A DNA stretch of 64,000 bases from Magnetospirillum sp. (GTDB lineage: Bacteria; Pseudomonadota; Alphaproteobacteria; CACIAM-22H2). Under the pieces are notes generated by a model. It was not told the DNA's origin. It saw only the letters and a program-made list of their open reading frames with translations, and searched no databases. The translations under genes and the position numbers were made by a program. Below, piece after piece: positions 39,530 to 48,477 of the stretch; the stretch's first letter is position 1; each line of letters begins with the position of its first letter. The stretch is taken from the NCBI GenBank assembly GCA_027532905.1, contig JAPZUA010000007.1, forward strand, positions 62,001 through 126,000, in the 5' to 3' direction.

Positions 39530-39796
39530 TTAGCGTGCAGGCGGGGGCGGCAGTACCAGCGCGTCGCGCACCGGCAGCAAGTCCGACTGAACAACCGCAA
39601 AAATCAGCCCCCAGACGATCGCCGCTGCGAGCGTCGTCCATAGGGCTTTCTTCAGCATCATCGGCTTTTCGGGCGCACCGGTCATTTGGCCGCGCCCGCC
39701 GGGTTCGGTCGTGGGGCGCACGCCGAAGGGCAGGATCGCAAACAGCACGATCCACCAGATCACGAGATACATGGCGATGCCGGTGACGGCGGTCAT
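39530..39796 (-). CDS. DUF1467 family membrane protein
   Basis: An 88-residue protein with two membrane helices (about residues 4-25 and 51-70) joined by a short polar loop with PTTEPGGRGQMTGAP. This fits DUF1467, a small family of alphaproteobacteria found next to methylmalonyl-CoA epimerase. The function is not known. The ATG at 39796 overlaps the mce stop as ATGA, so the two are coupled. Confidence 0.85.
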   Translation of the reverse strand: MTAVTGIAMYLVIWWIVLFAILPFGVRPTTEPGGRGQMTGAPEKPMMLKKALWTTLAAAIVWGLIFAVVQSDLLPVRDALVLPPPPAR

Positions 39797-40197
39797 GCCT
39801 GCTCGAGCTCGACCAGCGTGCCGCAAAAATCCTTGGGATGCAGGAACAGCACGGGCTTGTCGTGCGCACCGATCTTCGGATTGCCGTCGCCGAGCACGCG
39901 TGCACCCTCGGCCTTCAACCGGTCGCGTGCTGCGAAGATGTCATCGACTTCGTAGCACACATGGTGCATGCCGCCCGACGGATGGTCGGCCAGAAACTTC
40001 GCGATGGGCGAGCCCTCGCCCAGCGGATGCAAAAGCTCGATCTTGGTGTTGGCAAGCTCGACGAACACGGTGGTGACCCCATGTGCGGGCATGTCGACGG
40101 GCGCCGACACGCGGGCCCCCAGCGTGCCCGCATAGGTCTTGGTCGCGGCCGCAAGGTCCGGCACCACGATGGCGACATGGTTCAAACGTCCGATCAT
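39793..40197 (-). CDS. mce: Methylmalonyl-CoA epimerase
   Basis: Interconverts (S)- and (R)-methylmalonyl-CoA in propionate and branched-chain catabolism. The 134-residue protein has the VOC fold. Metal ligands are visible: His in LNHVAIVVPD (near residue 6), the histidine pair in MHHVCYEVDD, and Glu in GTLVELEQA at the C-terminus. The ATG at 40197 starts the conserved sequence. It is followed by the coupled DUF1467 gene; the chemoreceptor gene upstream is unrelated. Confidence 0.95.
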   Translation of the reverse strand: MIGRLNHVAIVVPDLAAATKTYAGTLGARVSAPVDMPAHGVTTVFVELANTKIELLHPLGEGSPIAKFLADHPSGGMHHVCYEVDDIFAARDRLKAEGARVLGDGNPKIGAHDKPVLFLHPKDFCGTLVELEQA

Positions 40198-40257: not shown

Positions 40258-42333
40258 TTACGCGGCCTTGATCTTGTCGAGGAAGCCTTCGACCACGCCG
40301 CGCAGCTTGCCCGAATCCGCCGTGAGGCCCGACACAGCATCGATCACCTCGTCGGCCGCCGTTTCGGTCTGCTGGCTCGATTTGGCGACCTCCCCGACAT
40401 TGTCGGTGACTTGCTGCGTGCCGATGGCCGCGTGCTGGACGCTGCGTGCGATTTCCTGCGTGGCCCCGCCCTGCTCTTCGATGGCGGCCGCGATCGCGGT
40501 CGAACTGCCGTCGATGTTGCGGATCGCGGCCGTGATCTCGGCGATCGCGTCGACCGTCTTGCGTGTCGATGCCTGGATGTCGGCCACTTTGCGCGTGATC
40601 TCTTCGGTCGCACGCCCGGTCTGCGAGGCGAGGTTTTTGACCTCGGAGGCCACCACGGCAAAACCCTTGCCCGCATCGCCCGCACGGGCCGCCTCGATCG
40701 TGGCATTGAGAGCCAGGAGATTGGTCTGGCCTGCAATGTCGGAGATCAGCTTCACGACGTCGCCGATCTGCTGGGCCCCCGTCGAAAGATCGTCGACAAT
40801 GCGCGCGGTTTCCTGCGCCTGATCGACGGCCGAGCGCGCGTCTTTCGCACTCGACTGCACGCGCGCGGAAATTTCGCGGATCGACGCGGTCAGCTGCTCG
40901 GTCGCGGCCGCAACCGACTGCACGTTGTTGGTGGCGTCGGAGGCTGCGGCGGCAACCACGCCGGCGTTTTTGCTCGATGCCGCTGCGATCATGCGCATCG
41001 TGTCGGCGGTGTCTTTGAGGCCGTCGGCCGAGCCGCCGAGCTTCTTTAGGATTTCGGCCGCTTCGGCGCTGAGGCCGGCGCACAGCGCATCGAGCGCTTG
41101 CGCGCGCGCAAGCTGCGATTGGCGCGCGGCTTCCTGCGCGTCGGCAAGCTCTTCGGCCTTTGCCGCACTTTGGCGCAGCGTTTCGAGTGCCGCCGTCATG
41201 CGTCCGAATTCGTCGGCATGGCGCCAGGCTGGAACGGCCGTGCGATAGTCGCGCTCCGACAGGCGTCCGATTGCGGGCATCAGCATGGCGATGGGCCGCA
41301 CGAGGCGGCTGCGGATCGTCCAGAACGCGATGCCCGCTAGCGCGAGGGCTGCCAGCAACACGCCCGACTGCGCGATGAGATCGTTGCGCGCCGCCGTCTC
41401 GGCGTCCTGCGCGCGCAAGGTGGCAAGTTCGAGCGCTTTGAAACCGATCGCGACGATCTCTTCGAACGGGTCGTTGCACATCGCCGTCCAATCCTGCGCC
41501 GGCACCACCGCCTGCCCGCCGCCGGTGAGCTTGGCCACCACGGGGTCCATCAGCGAAAAGGCGCGCGCAACTTCGTCCTTGGCGATTTTGGTGAGTGCGA
41601 CGACCGCCTGCGGAATGTCCTTGCGCGCGTAGATTTCGTCGAGCATTTCGAAACCGTTGTTCGAAATGCCGCGCAATTCGCCCAGGCGCTGCTTCTGCGC
41701 GTCGTTCAAAGCCCCGCCCGCCGCCACGATCGGGCGCAGGAACGAGCATTGCAGGCCGAAATTGGAGCGGATGTTCCAGGCGACCTTGCGAATCTGGACG
41801 GCCTCGGCAAAGAACCCGTCGGTGAGCCGCACATCGACCGAAACCGCGTTCGACGCAGCGTCGATCGCCTCGGTCAGTTTCAGCACCTCGTCGTCCCATA
41901 CCTTGAGATTGGCGAGCACGCGCTGATTGCGCGGCTTGGCCATTTCGCGGTCGAGGGCGCCCACTTCGCGCGCGGCAGCGGCCGAAGCGGCGGCCAGCGC
42001 ATCGCTATGGCGCTTTTGGTCTTGGACGTTCAGGGCGGAAAACAGCGCCAGCGAATTGGCGATCAGCCTGTCGTTCTGCGCGCGGATATCGGCGATCGCG
42101 GTTTGCGGCTGATCTTGCGTCTGCAGCAGAGTCTGGATGCGCCCGCGGCTGTTGCGCACAAAGGTCAAGGTCTCGAACAGCGCCTGGTCGGTCTGCGTCA
42201 GCTGCTGGGCGGCGACGCTCGCCTTGTAGCGCGCGGCGGCCCCCCAGATCTGCACGACGCTGAACGCGACGATACCGCAAGCAGCAGCTGCAAAGAGCAA
42301 CATGATGCGACTGGCGACGGACTTGGCACCCAT
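40258..42333 (-). CDS. Methyl-accepting chemotaxis protein
   Basis: Transmembrane chemoreceptor of 691 residues. TM1 is at about residues 8-30, a large periplasmic domain spans about 31-320 and TM2 about 321-341. A HAMP domain (341-395) follows, then a cytoplasmic coiled coil whose hairpin tip reads [20 protein letters not shown] near residues 533-552. The all-helical periplasmic domain is not a recognised Cache or PAS fold. It has two cysteines (Cys196, Cys286) that could form a disulfide. The signalling tip is the standard che-interacting type. A strong ribosome-binding site AAGGAGGG precedes the ATG. It lies beside the binding-protein and amidohydrolase genes and may sense their substrate. 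Confidence 0.93.
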
Positions 42334-42383
42334 TTTTCAACCCTCCTTGAAGGCCCAAAAATAAGCCCATTGCCGGTTAATAA

Positions 42384-42399
42384 TTCGTGTACAAACGAA
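42384..42399. promoter_or_regulatory. Inverted repeat upstream of the chemoreceptor gene
   Basis: TTCGT-N6-ACGAA lies in the AT-rich 112-nt gap between the CodA-like gene and the chemoreceptor gene, about 50 nt upstream of the chemoreceptor start. The symmetry and position suggest an operator. No regulator gene is present nearby, so the binding protein is unknown. Confidence 0.3.
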
Positions 42400-42445
42400 A
42401 AAATTCGATGGCGTTTGCGTTACATTTTTTACGGCACCGCCACCC

Positions 42446-43783
42446 TCACATGATCGCGTCGAGCTCCGAATACTCGGGTACCCCGTCGGTCACGCGGCGA
42501 CCGTTGTTCAGCACGATGCGGTCGGCTTGCGCACGGCACATAAGCTCGTTGAGCGTGCGCGCCTTGAACAGGATCAGACGCGCGGCGGCCCCCACCTCGA
42601 TCCAGCCGACACGCGGCTCGTCCACGATCGCCGACGGGATGGGCCCCGCCATCGCCACGGCCTGGGCCACGGGCGCGTCGAGCTGGAACACGCGCACCGA
42701 CTGCTGGACCGTGTCGACCATATCGTGGTCGCCGAACGGGAACCATGCATCGCGGCAATTGTCGCCGCCGATTGCAACCGGAATTCCGGCCGCCAGCAGC
42801 TCTTGCGCTGCCGTAACGCCGCGCCAGCGCGGCGTACGGCCGGGTTTGCGGTCCTGCAGATACATCATCGGCGTGGGCAACGTGACGAACATAATCTTGG
42901 CCTTGGCGCACAGTTCGATCGTGCGCGCGATCACGTCGTCGGGCTGGAGTGCGAGATTGACGCAGTGGCTTGCCACCACGCGGCCCTTGTAGCCGGTGCG
43001 CAATACCGATTCCGCGATCAGCGGCAGCGAATAGGCGGCCGGATTGTCCGACTGGTCGGCATGCAGATCGACGTCGAGATTGCGCGTGCCCGCGATCTCG
43101 AAAAACAGATCGAGCAGATCGGCGAGCTCGTGGTTGGCAGCACCGTCGAAATGGCCGATCGCGTCGGTGGTGCCGCCGAGTATGCCTTTGAGGGAAGCAA
43201 CGCGGTCGGCCTGTTCGCGGCCCCAGTCTTTGCGGAAAAACGTCAGCGGCGACAAGCCGACGGCCTGCAATTCGACGCGCCCCGCCCACGCCGCACGAAG
43301 TTCGGAAAACACTTCGTAGCTAAGGCCGACTTTGTCGTCGACCGAATCGAGATGCGTGCGAATCGCCGACACGCCGTGCGCGTAAGCGCACCGCAGGCCG
43401 AATTCCATGCGCGTGCGCATGTCGGCATGCGTCCAGCGCTTGCGGTCTTCGAAGGTGCCGGTCATGCCGCCGTCGAGCGTGCCGTCAGGCATCGCACGCG
43501 GAATGACCTGGCCCTTGTCGAGATGCGTGTGCATGTCGATGAGGGTCGCCCACACTTGGCGCCCCTCGACATCGACCGACGCCACCCCCCCGAAATCGAC
43601 TGTGCCCGTCGGGACGATCGCCGCAAACTTTCCGCCCGCGATTTTGAGATCGACCATAAAGCTGCCCTCGCCGTCGGCAACCAGCCCCGGTACGGGCTCG
43701 CGGAAAAAACAGCTCGGCACGCGCGCACGGCGCAAAACATAGTCGCCGCTGGTCGGAATCGCGATATCGCCGTGTTTTGCCAT
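42446..43783 (-). CDS. CodA-like amidohydrolase with altered active-site residues
   Basis: TIM-barrel amidohydrolase of the cytosine-deaminase family, 445 residues. Metal ligands are His85 and His87 (MHTHLDKG), His241, and Asp341 (GGDNCRDAWFPFG); His273 (ASHCVNLA) is also present, and the spacings match E. coli CodA. Two catalytic positions differ: CodA Glu217 (HCDE) corresponds to Gln244 (HADQ), and Asp314 to Asn342 (GDN). Glu217 relays protons in CodA, so plain cytosine deamination is doubtful; a related heterocycle or an amide may be the substrate. It is divergent from the binding-protein gene, 136 nt away. Confidence 0.85.
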   Translation of the reverse strand: MAKHGDIAIPTSGDYVLRRARVPSCFFREPVPGLVADGEGSFMVDLKIAGGKFAAIVPTGTVDFGGVASVDVEGRQVWATLIDMHTHLDKGQVIPRAMPDGTLDGGMTGTFEDRKRWTHADMRTRMEFGLRCAYAHGVSAIRTHLDSVDDKVGLSYEVFSELRAAWAGRVELQAVGLSPLTFFRKDWGREQADRVASLKGILGGTTDAIGHFDGAANHELADLLDLFFEIAGTRNLDVDLHADQSDNPAAYSLPLIAESVLRTGYKGRVVASHCVNLALQPDDVIARTIELCAKAKIMFVTLPTPMMYLQDRKPGRTPRWRGVTAAQELLAAGIPVAIGGDNCRDAWFPFGDHDMVDTVQQSVRVFQLDAPVAQAVAMAGPIPSAIVDEPRVGWIEVGAAARLILFKARTLNELMCRAQADRIVLNNGRRVTDGVPEYSELDAIM

Positions 43784-43863
43784 GGTTCTCTCCCTGTCGA
43801 ACGCCGCAATCGGCAGGCAATGCGCGTGCCAGAAGCGCCGACCTTCCGAGGAGTGCGTGGCAC

Positions 43864-43877
43864 ATTAAATGCTTAAT
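43864..43877. promoter_or_regulatory. Inverted repeat in the divergent amidohydrolase/binding-protein intergenic region
   Basis: ATTAA-ATGC-TTAAT lies between the two divergent genes, in an otherwise GC-rich 136-nt gap. Such a site could bind a regulator controlling both directions. The arms are only 5 bp, so chance is possible. Confidence 0.25.
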
Positions 43878-43919
43878 TCGGCGGGCCAAGTTCCGAACAA
43901 ACCATCCCCTGGAGGAACC

Positions 43920-44960
43920 ATGCCGACCGCAGCACCCAACCGCCGCTTTTTCGCCGCAGCCTTGATGGGCCTTGCCGTCGGGCTTGGGCTTGCGACTGCC
44001 GCAAGCGCGCAAGCGCCGACCAATATCCGCCTCACGCTCGATTGGGCGCCGCAGCCGCACCAAACGCCGTGGTTCATCGCGGCCGACAAGGGCTATTTCC
44101 AGCGCGAGGGCCTCAACGTCACGATCGACCGCGGCTTCGGCTCGGGCGACGCGATGAGCAAAGTCGCGGCCGGTGCCTACGACATGGGCCTCGGCGACCC
44201 CAACCTGCTCGCCCAATGGAACACGGCCAATCCGAACCTCAAACTCACGACCGTGTTCCTCTACATGGATCGCGGCATGCACGCGATGGTCACGCTGCGC
44301 AGCACCGGCATCAAGTCGCTTTCGGATCTCTCCGGCAGGAAGATCGCAACCCTGAACGGCGACATCATCCGACCGATGTGGAACGTGCTCGCGCGCGTCA
44401 ACAACATCGACAGCAGCAAGATCGAGTGGCTGACCGTGCAGCCGGCCTTGCGCGATGCGCTGCTTGCACGCGGCGGCGCGGAAGCCGTGACGGCGTTTGC
44501 CTCCACGACCTATTTCAATCTGCTGGCGCTGGGTCAGAAACCCGAAGACATCGTGCTGTTCCCAATTAGCGAGCACGGGTTCGAACTGCTCGGCAACGGC
44601 ATCATCGTCACGGCCGACTACGCCCAGCGCAATCCCGACACGATCCGCCGCTTCCTGCGCGCGACGATGGCGGGCATGCGCGACGCGCTCGCCGACGTGC
44701 CGGCGGCCGTCCAAGCCGTCGCCCGCCGCGATCCCACGATCAATCCGCAGGTCGAGGCCGACCGCTTCCGCTTCATGATCGAGCGCGCGATCGTGACCCC
44801 GCATGTGAAGGCCGAAGGGGTCAGCGTCGTCAATGCAGATCGCCTTGCCAAGCTCAACGCGTTGCTGACCGAAGCGTTCGAACTGCCCGCACCGCGGCCC
44901 GCGTCGGAACTCTACACCGACGCGTTCCTGCCGCCGTTGGCCGAGCGCAAACTGCCGTGA
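43920..44960 (+). CDS. THI5/NMT1-like periplasmic substrate-binding protein
   Basis: Solute-binding protein of an ABC importer, 346 residues. A Tat-like or Sec signal peptide (PNRRFFAAALMGLAVG, cleaved near residue 32 after ASAQA) leads to the mature domain TNIRLTLDWAPQPHQTPWF. The LDW-P...H pattern and AADKGYFQREGLNV are marks of the NMT1/THI5/ThiY group, which binds pyrimidines, thiamine precursors, sulfonates or similar compounds. GGAGGAACC precedes the ATG at 43920. No permease or ATPase gene is in the window. The next gene, a hydrolase, overlaps by 4 nt (GTGA), so they are co-expressed. Confidence 0.88.
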   Translation: MPTAAPNRRFFAAALMGLAVGLGLATAASAQAPTNIRLTLDWAPQPHQTPWFIAADKGYFQREGLNVTIDRGFGSGDAMSKVAAGAYDMGLGDPNLLAQWNTANPNLKLTTVFLYMDRGMHAMVTLRSTGIKSLSDLSGRKIATLNGDIIRPMWNVLARVNNIDSSKIEWLTVQPALRDALLARGGAEAVTAFASTTYFNLLALGQKPEDIVLFPISEHGFELLGNGIIVTADYAQRNPDTIRRFLRATMAGMRDALADVPAAVQAVARRDPTINPQVEADRFRFMIERAIVTPHVKAEGVSVVNADRLAKLNALLTEAFELPAPRPASELYTDAFLPPLAERKLP

Positions 44961-45838
44961 CCGACATCGACGCCGCACGGCCCATGCCTGTCGATCGTGG
45001 CGCCCTCTATCGCGACATGGACCGTGCGACGCTCGACCGCGCCTACCAGAACGGAGCGGCCGTGCCCGACACGGCCGCCATTCTCGAAAGCTGGCGCGTG
45101 CGCAGTGCAGCCTATCGCCGCCTGCACCCGGCCCTCATCGACCAGGCGTGGGGTGCCCATCCGCGCCAAGCGACCGACTTTTTCGATTGCGGCGTTGCGG
45201 GTGCGCCGACCTTGCTGTTCGTGCATGGCGGCTATTGGCACTATCCGCAGCATTCCCGCGAAGCTTTTTCGGCACTTGCGCTCGGCCTCGTCGAATGCGG
45301 CGTGCACGTGGCGTTCACGGGCTATCGCCTTGCCCCCGAAGCCAAGCTTGCCGAAATTGTCGGCGACGTCGCGACCGCGATTGCCCACCTCACCGGCTTG
45401 CGCCGCACTGTCGGTGCGGATCCGCTGCGCCTCTGCGTTGCAGGCTGGTCGGCGGGCGGGCAACTGGCAGCCCTTGCCCAGCACCTGCCCGGCGTATCGG
45501 CTTGCCTTGCAATCAGCGGCATTTTCGATCTCGAGCCGATGCGGCTTTGCTTCGTAAACGACAAGCTCGGCCTCACGCCCGACGACGTTTCCGCGCTTGG
45601 CCCGATCCATCGCCTGCCGCCGCCGCACGCACGGCTTGCCGTGAGCGTGGGCGCCAACGAATTGCCCGAACTGCGCCGCCAATCGGCGGACTACGCCGCC
45701 GCGTGCCGTGCCTCGGGCATCGATTGCCGCTTGCGGGAACTGCCAGGCCACAACCATTTTACGATCCTCGACGAACTCGGATCGGCCGACGGCGTCTTGG
45801 CGGTGGAAGTGCGCCGCCTGCTCGGCTTCGATTTGTAG
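44957..45838 (+). CDS. Alpha/beta hydrolase, kynurenine-formamidase-like
   Basis: A 293-residue serine hydrolase of the alpha/beta fold. The oxyanion motif HGGYWH is at residues 90-95, the nucleophile elbow GWSAGG has Ser165, a likely acidic residue is near Glu235, and the catalytic His is at 265 or 267 (PGHNHF). HGGYW with GHNHF is characteristic of arylformamidases of the BNA7 type, which release formate from N-formylkynurenine. Here the natural substrate is unknown and may be the compound bound by the upstream binding protein. The GTG start overlaps the upstream stop as GTGA. No other kynurenine-pathway gene is present. Confidence 0.82.
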   Translation: MTDIDAARPMPVDRGALYRDMDRATLDRAYQNGAAVPDTAAILESWRVRSAAYRRLHPALIDQAWGAHPRQATDFFDCGVAGAPTLLFVHGGYWHYPQHSREAFSALALGLVECGVHVAFTGYRLAPEAKLAEIVGDVATAIAHLTGLRRTVGADPLRLCVAGWSAGGQLAALAQHLPGVSACLAISGIFDLEPMRLCFVNDKLGLTPDDVSALGPIHRLPPPHARLAVSVGANELPELRRQSADYAAACRASGIDCRLRELPGHNHFTILDELGSADGVLAVEVRRLLGFDL

Positions 45839-46029
45839 GCAGGCGCCGCCCCCATCGTCTCGCACCGCTCACGTCCGCGCGTGCGTCGCCGGTGCGGCTT
45901 CGAGACCCAGCTAGGCGATCAAGCTATGCTACGGCACCCGATCGCAAAATCGTGCCCTATCCGTCCCACACGCCGGTCGGGGTCACAGTGCTCTGCGACT
46001 AGAAACGCGCGGCGCCCGCAAACGCGGCG

Positions 46030-46575
46030 CTAGGCCAAAATCTCGCCGGTCGATCGTATCGTTGCGTATTCGCCCTGCAGGTTCGACAGCGCCATGAGGT
46101 GCCACTCGGCGGCCGGGCGAACTGCCCCTCGATAGTCCGTCTTGTCGTAGGTGTAGCAGGCGTCGTCAGGCAACGTCACGCCGAAGCCGAGGCAACTCGC
46201 GGCCCGCACAGTTGCCTCCACGGAATTGTTGGTGCTGACGCCGACGACGACCAGATCGCTTATGTCGCGCAGGCGCAGCCAGCGCTCCAGCCCACTATTG
46301 GCAAAGGCGTCGGCGACATTCTTCTCCATCCGGTGTTCGGACGCGAGGGGCGCAAAACGCGGCTGGAAATCGCAGTTCGGCGCACCAGGCCAAAAAGGAC
46401 TGCCGGACGTGCGCGACATATGCCGCACATGCACGACGGGCCGGTGCTGGCTGCGCCAATGCGCCAGCAGCCGTTCCATATTGTCTTCGGCCTGCGGGTT
46501 GTTTCGCGGCCCCGTGTTTTCGGGCAGCATGCCGCGCTGCATGTCGATCAGGATCAAAGCGGCGTTGCTATGCAT
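46030..46575 (-). CDS. Isochorismatase-like hydrolase with Ser at the nucleophile position
   Basis: A 181-residue member of the cysteine-hydrolase/isochorismatase fold. Asp11 (ILIDMQRG) and Lys85 (HRMEKNVADAF) of the usual triad are present. The nucleophile position reads GVSTNNSVEATVR, so Ser118 stands where nicotinamidases and ureidoacrylate hydrolases have Cys. Isochorismatases proper also lack Cys, so an active hydrolase is possible, but amidase chemistry by thiolate is excluded. The ATG at 46575 begins the conserved domain. A promoter-like pair lies upstream. The gene stands at the edge of the accessory block, on the strand opposite to the hydrolase gene. Confidence 0.83.
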   Translation of the reverse strand: MHSNAALILIDMQRGMLPENTGPRNNPQAEDNMERLLAHWRSQHRPVVHVRHMSRTSGSPFWPGAPNCDFQPRFAPLASEHRMEKNVADAFANSGLERWLRLRDISDLVVVGVSTNNSVEATVRAASCLGFGVTLPDDACYTYDKTDYRGAVRPAAEWHLMALSNLQGEYATIRSTGEILA

Positions 46576-46827: not shown

Positions 46828-48477
46828 TCAGAGCCGAACCACGTGAATCTCGGCAAGCGGCTTTTTGCCGCGGCGATTGTGGATCAATTTCCTGATCGCC
46901 CGCCGAGCGGCCTCGGCCAGCACGTCGTCGCCGGCTTTGTCGGGGCAGCGTGCCACGGCCCCGCGCACGGTCTCGATCAAATCGTCGGCGAGATCGTCGG
47001 GTTCGCTCGGGTCGATCAAGCCGGGGGCCGAAATGCGCGGCTCGGACATGAGGCGACCGCGGCGATCGACGACGACGGTCGCAACGACCGCACCGTTCCA
47101 CAGAAGCTTGGCGCGGCCGCGCACGATCGCCCCGTCCATCGGCAGCAGGCGGTCGCCGTCCACGCCCCAGCGCCCGGCCTGCACATGCTCGGCCACGACC
47201 GGGCCGCCGGGCGCGTCGAGCCTTATGATCTGGCCGTTCTCGGGCACCAGCGCATAAGGCACCTGGCAGTCCCGCGCCAAGGCCGCATGGGCGCGCATGT
47301 GCAGAGCCTCACCGTGCACGGGGATCGCGATGCGCGGACGAATCCACTGGTACATCGCGGCAAGCTCGTCGCGGCACGGATGGCCCGACACGTGGATCGG
47401 CGCATCCTGGTCGGTGATGACTTTGACGCCGAGGCGCATCAGTTGGTTCTGCAGATGGCCGATCGGCTTCTCGTTGCCCGGAATCGTACGCGAGGAAAAC
47501 AGCGCCCAGTCGCCGTCTTCGAGCACTACGTGCGGGTGCTGGTCTTCGGCGATACGCGAAAGTGCAGCGCGCGGTTCGCCCTGCGAGCCCGTGCACAGCA
47601 TCACAATGCGCTCGCGCGGCACGTAGCCTGCGTCGCTCTCGGTCAAGAACGGCGGCAGGTCGCGCATATAGCCGTTCTCGCGCGCAGCCTCGTAGATGCG
47701 CCACAGCGAGCGGCCCACGAGCGCGCATTCACGGCCCGCCTTTTTGGCTGCCCGCGCCACGCTTTCCACACGCGCGACGTTGGACGCAAAACACGCCACC
47801 GCCACACGGTTCGGCGCTTGGGCGATAAGCTTTTCGAGTTCGACGGCAACGCTGCCTTCTGAGCCGGACGTGCCGTCCTTGATCGCGTTGGTCGAATCGC
47901 CGACGAGAGCCAAAACGCCTTCGTTGCCCACGCGGCGGAAGGCGGCTTCGTCGGTCACGGGCCCGAGCATCGGCATGTCGTCGAGCTTCCAGTCGCCGGT
48001 ATGCAGAATGGTGCCGGCCGGCGTGCGGATCGCGAGCGCGTTGGGCTCCGGGATCGAGTGCGTGATGTGGATGTATTCGATTTCGAAATCGCCGAGGCGA
48101 AACTTGGCCCCCTGTTCGAGCACGTGGATCGGCACGTCGCGCGCGAAATCGGTTTCGAGCAGCTTGCGCTTGAGGAAAGAAGCCGTAAATCCCGTCGCGT
48201 AGATCGGGCAGCGCAGCAGCGGCCACAGATACTGCACGGCCCCCAAATGGTCCTCGTGCGCATGCGTGAGCACGAGGCCCAGCAGATCTTCGCGCCGTTC
48301 GGCGATGAAGCTCGGGTCCGGCATGATCACGTCGACGCCGCTGCCGCTGCCTTCGCCGAAGGTCACGCCGAGATCGACCATCAGCCACTTGCCGCGGTAG
48401 CGGTAGAGATTGAGATTCATCCCGATCTCGCCCGAACCGCCGAGCGGCAGAAAATAGAGGCCCGGATCGCCGCTCAT
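46828..48477 (-). CDS. rnj: Ribonuclease J
   Basis: Metallo-beta-lactamase/beta-CASP ribonuclease with 5' exonuclease activity in RNA maturation and decay. It has 549 residues. The zinc motif HAHEDH is near residue 77, with GDWKLDD and a beta-CASP region containing MLCTGSQGEP. HVSGHP is near residue 370, with a C-terminal dimerisation domain. The ATG at 48477 overlaps the coaX stop as ATGA. It is the last gene of the nuo-birA-coaX-rnj run. Confidence 0.95.
   Translation of the reverse strand: MSGDPGLYFLPLGGSGEIGMNLNLYRYRGKWLMVDLGVTFGEGSGSGVDVIMPDPSFIAERREDLLGLVLTHAHEDHLGAVQYLWPLLRCPIYATGFTASFLKRKLLETDFARDVPIHVLEQGAKFRLGDFEIEYIHITHSIPEPNALAIRTPAGTILHTGDWKLDDMPMLGPVTDEAAFRRVGNEGVLALVGDSTNAIKDGTSGSEGSVAVELEKLIAQAPNRVAVACFASNVARVESVARAAKKAGRECALVGRSLWRIYEAARENGYMRDLPPFLTESDAGYVPRERIVMLCTGSQGEPRAALSRIAEDQHPHVVLEDGDWALFSSRTIPGNEKPIGHLQNQLMRLGVKVITDQDAPIHVSGHPCRDELAAMYQWIRPRIAIPVHGEALHMRAHAALARDCQVPYALVPENGQIIRLDAPGGPVVAEHVQAGRWGVDGDRLLPMDGAIVRGRAKLLWNGAVVATVVVDRRGRLMSEPRISAPGLIDPSEPDDLADDLIETVRGAVARCPDKAGDDVLAEAARRAIRKLIHNRRGKKPLAEIHVVRL

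Follow-up and report, generated by a model that had tools for sequence, protein, structure and literature searches.

A conserved trio of amidohydrolase, THI5-type binding protein and alpha/beta hydrolase genes within an accessory block between rnj and mce in Magnetospirillum sp.

Which functions are encoded by five genes lodged between rnj and mce in an alphaproteobacterial genome, and do these genes belong together? They occupy positions 40258-46575 of a 64,000-nucleotide stretch of Magnetospirillum sp. (assembly GCA_027532905.1, contig JAPZUA010000007.1, positions 62,001 to 126,000), hereafter the window. An original prediction, made from the DNA letters alone, had read them as a single pathway for the sensing, capture and hydrolysis of an N-heterocycle or formamide. 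All five open reading frames that it named are present, partly divergent, in the order mce, chemoreceptor, amidohydrolase, binding protein, alpha/beta hydrolase, isochorismatase-fold protein, rnj. Our comparison with related genomes divides this block into a conserved core of three genes and two variable neighbours, and assigns the amidohydrolase to a clade in which a catalytic glutamate of the CodA cluster is replaced by glutamine.

The genus, to which Tagaea sp. CACIAM 22H2 belongs, was represented by 11 genomes, that of the window (G000) and ten others. Several relatives are fragmented metagenome-assembled genomes, and genes outside the window were called by a simple codon-score caller trained on the genes of the window. 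None of the ten other genomes was found to carry all five genes together. A trio composed of the amidohydrolase gene, facing away from the binding-protein gene and the alpha/beta hydrolase gene that follows it, was found in 6 of the 11 genomes and at two chromosomal sites. It lies between rnj and mce in G000, G002 and G003, while in G001, G005 and G009 it occupies a second, unrelated site with the same gene order and orientation (the G001 hydrolase gene being cut by a contig end). Purifying selection acts on all genes tested between G000, G002 and G003, with ratios of nonsynonymous to synonymous substitution rates of 0.08-0.11 for the amidohydrolase, 0.05-0.08 for the binding protein and about 0.2 for the hydrolase. 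The trio is a conserved unit, to which the chemoreceptor and isochorismatase-fold genes do not belong.

In the window, the amidohydrolase gene (42446-43783, minus strand, 445 amino acids) and the gene for the THI5/NMT1-type periplasmic binding protein (43920-44960, plus strand, 346 amino acids, alternative start at 43869; Pfam NMT1, 8e-33) diverge across a gap of about 90-140 bases, depending on the start codon. Both promoters are predicted to lie in this intergenic region (43784-43919), and CTCCCT, GCAA.GC and TGGCA are among the blocks common there to the six orthologous loci. The start of the hydrolase gene (44957-45838, plus strand, 293 amino acids) overlaps the stop of the binding-protein gene by 4 bases, which suggests that the two are co-translated. 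Control of the block by a riboswitch was ruled out by an Rfam scan of the window, which returned no thiamine pyrophosphate (TPP) riboswitch and, as its sole match, an rpsB small RNA.

The amidohydrolase scores above the cut-off of the NCBIfam model PRK07583, 'cytosine deaminase' (498.9 versus 403 bits), which is a family name and not a tested function. Its predicted fold matches those of Escherichia coli cytosine deaminase CodA (1k6w, Z 41, 23% identity) and of AtzC, the N-isopropylammelide isopropylaminohydrolase (Z 38). Active-site positions were compared by aligning 67 homologues to E. coli CodA, whose numbering we use. The window protein and nine relatives (60-95% identity) all carry Gln at the position of catalytic Glu217, encoded in the window by codon 244 (43052-43054, minus strand, as computed from the gene start); all ten also carry Met in place of Asn279 and Trp, instead of Phe, at 319. 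All other PRK07583-like proteins in the set retain Glu217. We refer to the two kinds as Q-type and E-type, respectively. The window protein has the same metal ligands as the E-type proteins, and a maximum-likelihood tree places the Q-type proteins in a single 10-member clade (support 100/100) nested among the E-type proteins.

The CodA metal ligands H61, H63, H214 and D313 and the shuttle residue His246 are kept in 10/10 Q-type members. In contrast, the substrate residue Gln156 of CodA is replaced by Pro in the window protein and by Pro or Ser across the clade, and the position of Asp314 is Asn in the window protein. In CodA, Glu217 protonates ring N3, and Gln156 is needed for cytosine deamination, its replacement inactivating the enzyme (PMC12828455). 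The 'CodA-like' label of the original prediction consequently holds for the fold and fails for the active site. Judged by its active-site residues, the window protein is not a cytosine deaminase, and because the residues that define this reaction are replaced in every member of the clade, the name is very likely wrong for Q-type proteins in general.

These replacements raise the possibility that Q-type amidohydrolases are catalytically dead and survive as ligand-binding paralogues, perhaps serving the binding-protein system as a sensor or a decoy partner. None of the ten proteins has the catalytic Glu or Gln156, published work describes an Asp-His-Glu machinery that varies little among CodA-cluster enzymes and reports CodA to be inactive once the Gln is replaced (PMC12828455), and the clade no longer resides in E-type operons. 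Yet the full set of metal ligands and His246 persist in all ten, and purifying selection is strong. Moreover, AtzC is functional with a histidine, His219, at the Glu217 position (PMC4577212). The His219Ala change lowers its kcat about as much as does Asp188Asn, which nearly halved kcat (PMC4577212); since AtzC is only partly impaired by this change, Glu at that position is not required for amine removal, and its loss alone therefore does not mean loss of activity in the Q-type clade. We consider a dead paralogue unlikely. The window protein and AtzC both lack the Glu, and three other pocket positions of AtzC match, its Lys65, Asn304 and Trp309 having as counterparts Lys, Asn and Trp at CodA positions 66, 314 and 319. 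The two differ in that the window protein has Gln where AtzC has His219 and Pro where AtzC has Gln160, and that triazine pathway genes are not nearby.

The genomic neighbourhoods of the two types also diverge. An NMT1/THI5-type gene is the immediate neighbour of the amidohydrolase gene in 10/10 Q-type loci versus 1/55 E-type loci, although the ten pairings are not independent events since the clade is one lineage. Within the 55 E-type loci, NMT1 genes were found nearby in 48, together with genes for ATP-binding cassette (ABC) ATPases (48), permeases (47), GlcD-like flavin adenine dinucleotide (FAD) oxidases (42) and creatininase-family proteins (35); these counts are minimum values with a bias towards Pseudomonadota, few genes having been called in the cyanobacterial loci. 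Q-type loci, on the other hand, lack the usual E-type neighbours, namely genes for a permease, FAD oxidase, creatininase and flavodoxin-like protein. An E-type gene is nevertheless also present in every checkable Q-type genome (G000, G001, G002, G003, G005, G009, G012 and G266).

The recurrent E-type cluster, found in the window's own genome at L054 (G000:C4:451001-471000) and also at L057, L058, L060, L061, L079, L081, L084, L111 and L143, comprises an NMT1 binding protein, an ABC ATPase, a permease, the Glu-type amidohydrolase, 1-3 GlcD-like FAD oxidases, creatininase-family and flavodoxin-like proteins, and often a Rieske oxygenase or LysR. This cluster looks like an undescribed catabolic pathway for N-heterocycles or, more broadly, N-compounds. 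It occurs in tens of genomes, mostly alphaproteobacterial, and as a lead it outweighs the block in the window. At the rnj-mce spot, G002 has an additional binding-protein gene of about 1.1 kb. Its product shares 66-69% identity with the proteins adjoining Q-type genes in L071 and L072 and about 45% with the binding protein encoded in the G000 E-type cluster. The window binding protein belongs to another subgroup; a relative in Elioraea (L111, 38-39% identity), which has its own ATPase and permease, shares its neighbourhood with an E-type cluster. We infer that the trio arose by duplication from the E-type pathway and may still use the E-type importer.

The alpha/beta hydrolase (Pfam Abhydrolase_3, 2e-16) is the weakest member of the trio. 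Its partners in the five other trio genomes are 48-82% identical to it. With kynurenine formamidase it shares an HGGxW motif and a GxSxG nucleophile motif (HGGYW and GWSAG in the window protein), but it is closer to other hydrolases: its best solved relative is 'Lipase 1' (9n8r, 7e-55), whereas the match to kynurenine formamidase is far weaker (1e-8). Its earlier description as formamidase-like was thus loosely right, and no positive evidence was found for the formamide or deformylation chemistry proposed along with it. Outside the genus, members of the hydrolase family (40-48% identity) adjoin guanine deaminase (L190/L192), ABC importers (L188/L189/L194) and other amidohydrolases (L193/L197), while among the loci examined none was found beside a Q-type gene. 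As far as gene neighbourhoods can tell, such surroundings fit N-compound catabolism and do not fix the substrate.

Our preferred reading, to which we give about an even chance, is that the trio constitutes an auxiliary N-heterocycle capture-and-hydrolysis module extending the larger E-type pathway. In the periplasm, the binding protein would capture an N-heterocycle and pass it on to a permease whose gene lies elsewhere, the E-type cluster on contig C4 of G000 being one possible source. The cytoplasmic amidohydrolase, a putative mononuclear metalloenzyme, would then cut a C-N bond, either exocyclic or within the ring, in a manner closer to AtzC than to cytosine deaminase, and in some species the serine hydrolase would trim an ester or amide. 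The trio, which probably stems by duplication from the E-type catabolic pathway, would broaden the substrate range of that pathway. Capture and hydrolysis of an N-heterocycle, as originally proposed, is hence still the reading that suits the trio best, whereas the accompanying sensing and isochorismatase steps are unsupported.

Several observations weigh against this module. The trio includes no permease or ATPase genes, and no importer is assignable to it. Gln160 of AtzC (Gln156 of CodA) is not kept in Q-type proteins, which makes the AtzC analogy partial. The pair of amidohydrolase and binding protein occurs outside the genus without the alpha/beta hydrolase, and in the G003 hydrolase (L050:11477-12343) GWSAG has changed to GRTAG, so that the nucleophile Ser shared with kynurenine formamidase is lost and the protein is probably inactive; the hydrolase step is therefore not universal. 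Finally, the binding proteins adjacent to Q-type genes divide into two or more subgroups that are distant from each other (about 20% identity), and a single fixed ligand is consequently less likely.

On a broader scale, we tentatively suggest that the Q-type clade may be a new class of CodA-cluster enzymes, which would perform metal-dependent hydrolysis without the proton-shuttling Glu, would receive its substrate from an orphan THI5-type protein and would stem from a single duplication out of a widespread N-heterocycle pathway; we consider this possible but somewhat less likely than not. While the component families are known, the conserved Glu-to-Gln clade with its fixed THI5-type pairing is new. 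For the amidohydrolase superfamily, the clade amounts to a clean natural experiment in losing the catalytic Glu, and the invariable pairing gives a direct handle on the Q-type substrate. A search of the open-licence literature returned no described cluster of this make-up and nothing useful on CodA E217 variants or on an HGGXW formamidase link.

The main rival to the N-heterocycle module is auxiliary thiamine-pyrimidine salvage, in which a breakdown pyrimidine would be captured by the binding protein and converted by the amidohydrolase and/or the hydrolase for TenA/ThiE, in a genus unable to make 4-amino-5-hydroxymethyl-2-methylpyrimidine (HMP). ThiC was found in none of the 11 genus genomes (control positive in 13/14), while ThiE is present in 11/11 and TenA in 10/11. 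Because ThiC is absent while ThiE and mostly TenA are kept, the genus, as read from its gene content, probably depends on an outside source of the thiamine pyrimidine. The AlphaFold2 model of the binding protein (predicted local distance difference test score, pLDDT, 89.9) likewise has its closest fold matches among ThiY-type proteins, namely 3ix1, which binds N-formyl-4-amino-5-aminomethyl-2-methylpyrimidine (FAMP; Z 30.9), and thiamin-bound 4nmy (30.6), and in Thi5 (Z 28-31 overall, versus 23 for the next non-thiamine matches). However, its identity to ThiY-type proteins is 18-20%, and the window locus has no permease, ATPase or TPP riboswitch. A separate TPP-riboswitch locus in G000 (L154, G000:C2:1024001-1040000) has an ATPase, a permease and a binding protein of its own, an arrangement that also points to reliance on external thiamine pyrimidine. 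Its binding protein scores 114 bits to 3ix1, where the window protein scores 31; this rules out the window protein as the main ThiY of the genome. In addition, the 5/11 genus genomes without the trio have the same thiamine genes, and the E-type relatives adjoin creatininase and FAD oxidase genes, mostly not thi genes. We therefore regard thiamine salvage as improbable, though it is the alternative to be taken most seriously.

Apart from these comparisons, G000 was observed to carry three or more orphan NMT1 binding-protein genes that have neither a permease nor an ATPase gene beside them (among L155, L162, L164, L161 and L158), their products being 36-42% identical to the window protein. Two further G000 relatives (35% and 30%) adjoin amidohydrolases of the 8-oxoguanine deaminase/chlorohydrolase type. 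In two species of the genus, TenA ends the isc/hsc iron-sulfur operon, directly upstream of mnmA (L230:7687-8307 and L231:6845-7534).

The insertion site lies between mce (methylmalonyl-CoA epimerase, 39793-40197, minus strand; TIGR03081, 157.7 bits) and rnj (ribonuclease J, 46828-48477, minus strand, identified by RNase J Pfam domains). The original prediction described these genes as neighbours in many alphaproteobacteria, and in this genus they are indeed direct neighbours in five sister species (G001, G005, G007, G008 and G009), with 33-211 bases between them. The five-gene block is accessory, as this direct adjacency in relatives makes plain. Its base composition is not distinct from that of the surroundings. 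In G004, whose RNase J is 90% identical, an amidohydrolase relic corresponding to residues 274-445 lies between mce and rnj; the block was therefore formerly there and has decayed. The G002 site holds the amidohydrolase, binding protein, hydrolase and isochorismatase genes and is missing the chemoreceptor, while the G003 site holds the trio and the chemoreceptor and is missing the isochorismatase. The rnj-mce spot is prone to insertions and deletions and holds the conserved trio plus two variable neighbours.

Could the whole block be an accretion of unrelated single genes at this spot, without functional link? DNA alignments of G000, G002 and G003 display clean single-gene differences (chemoreceptor, isochorismatase, second binding protein), and genes of these kinds are numerous, with 88 chemoreceptor candidates in the window's genome and 12 NMT1 matches. 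Such a process fits the two outer genes. For the trio it is refuted by conservation at two sites, order and orientation being kept at the unrelated site of G001, G005 and G009, and it also disagrees with the pairing of amidohydrolase and NMT1 genes in 10/10 genomes. As an explanation for the block as a whole, accretion is quite improbable.

The same maps bear on the originally predicted pathway, in which five genes would detect a ring compound, bind it and open or deformylate it. In its favour, the genes lie side by side in the window's genome, but the G002 and G003 maps rule out their co-occurrence as a set; the trio and the amidohydrolase-THI5 pairing are the conserved parts of the predicted association of five families. 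The chemoreceptor gene (40258-42333, minus strand, 691 amino acids; MCPsignal, 4e-30) encodes a methyl-accepting chemotaxis protein for which the domain search matched no named ligand-binding domain. Its relatives in G005 and G009 (50-51% identity) lie elsewhere, adjoining a tripartite ATP-independent periplasmic (TRAP) transporter. The isochorismatase-fold protein (46030-46575, minus strand; Pfam Isochorismatase, 7e-30) has the motif STNNSVEAT, in which a Ser stands at what we take to be the catalytic Cys position of isochorismatase-fold cysteine hydrolases; the same Ser is found in G002, in the 40-49% genus relatives and in the solved structure 3mcw. The five-gene pathway, which neither outer gene helps to sustain, is largely refuted by the G002/G003 comparison, and we judge it very improbable.

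A comparison with the Rut pathway for pyrimidines had been drawn on the basis of an isochorismatase fold (RutB) and an alpha/beta hydrolase (RutD) in one neighbourhood, a likeness that does exist here. It fails on the catalytic cysteine: with Ser at that position, the window protein is not RutB-like in mechanism. It also scores 34 bits against the RutB model (cut-off 378) and is missing from a trio-bearing sister species. Elsewhere in the window, the rpsB leader match (RF01815, 28630-28747, minus strand) scored 42.1 bits, barely over the gathering score.

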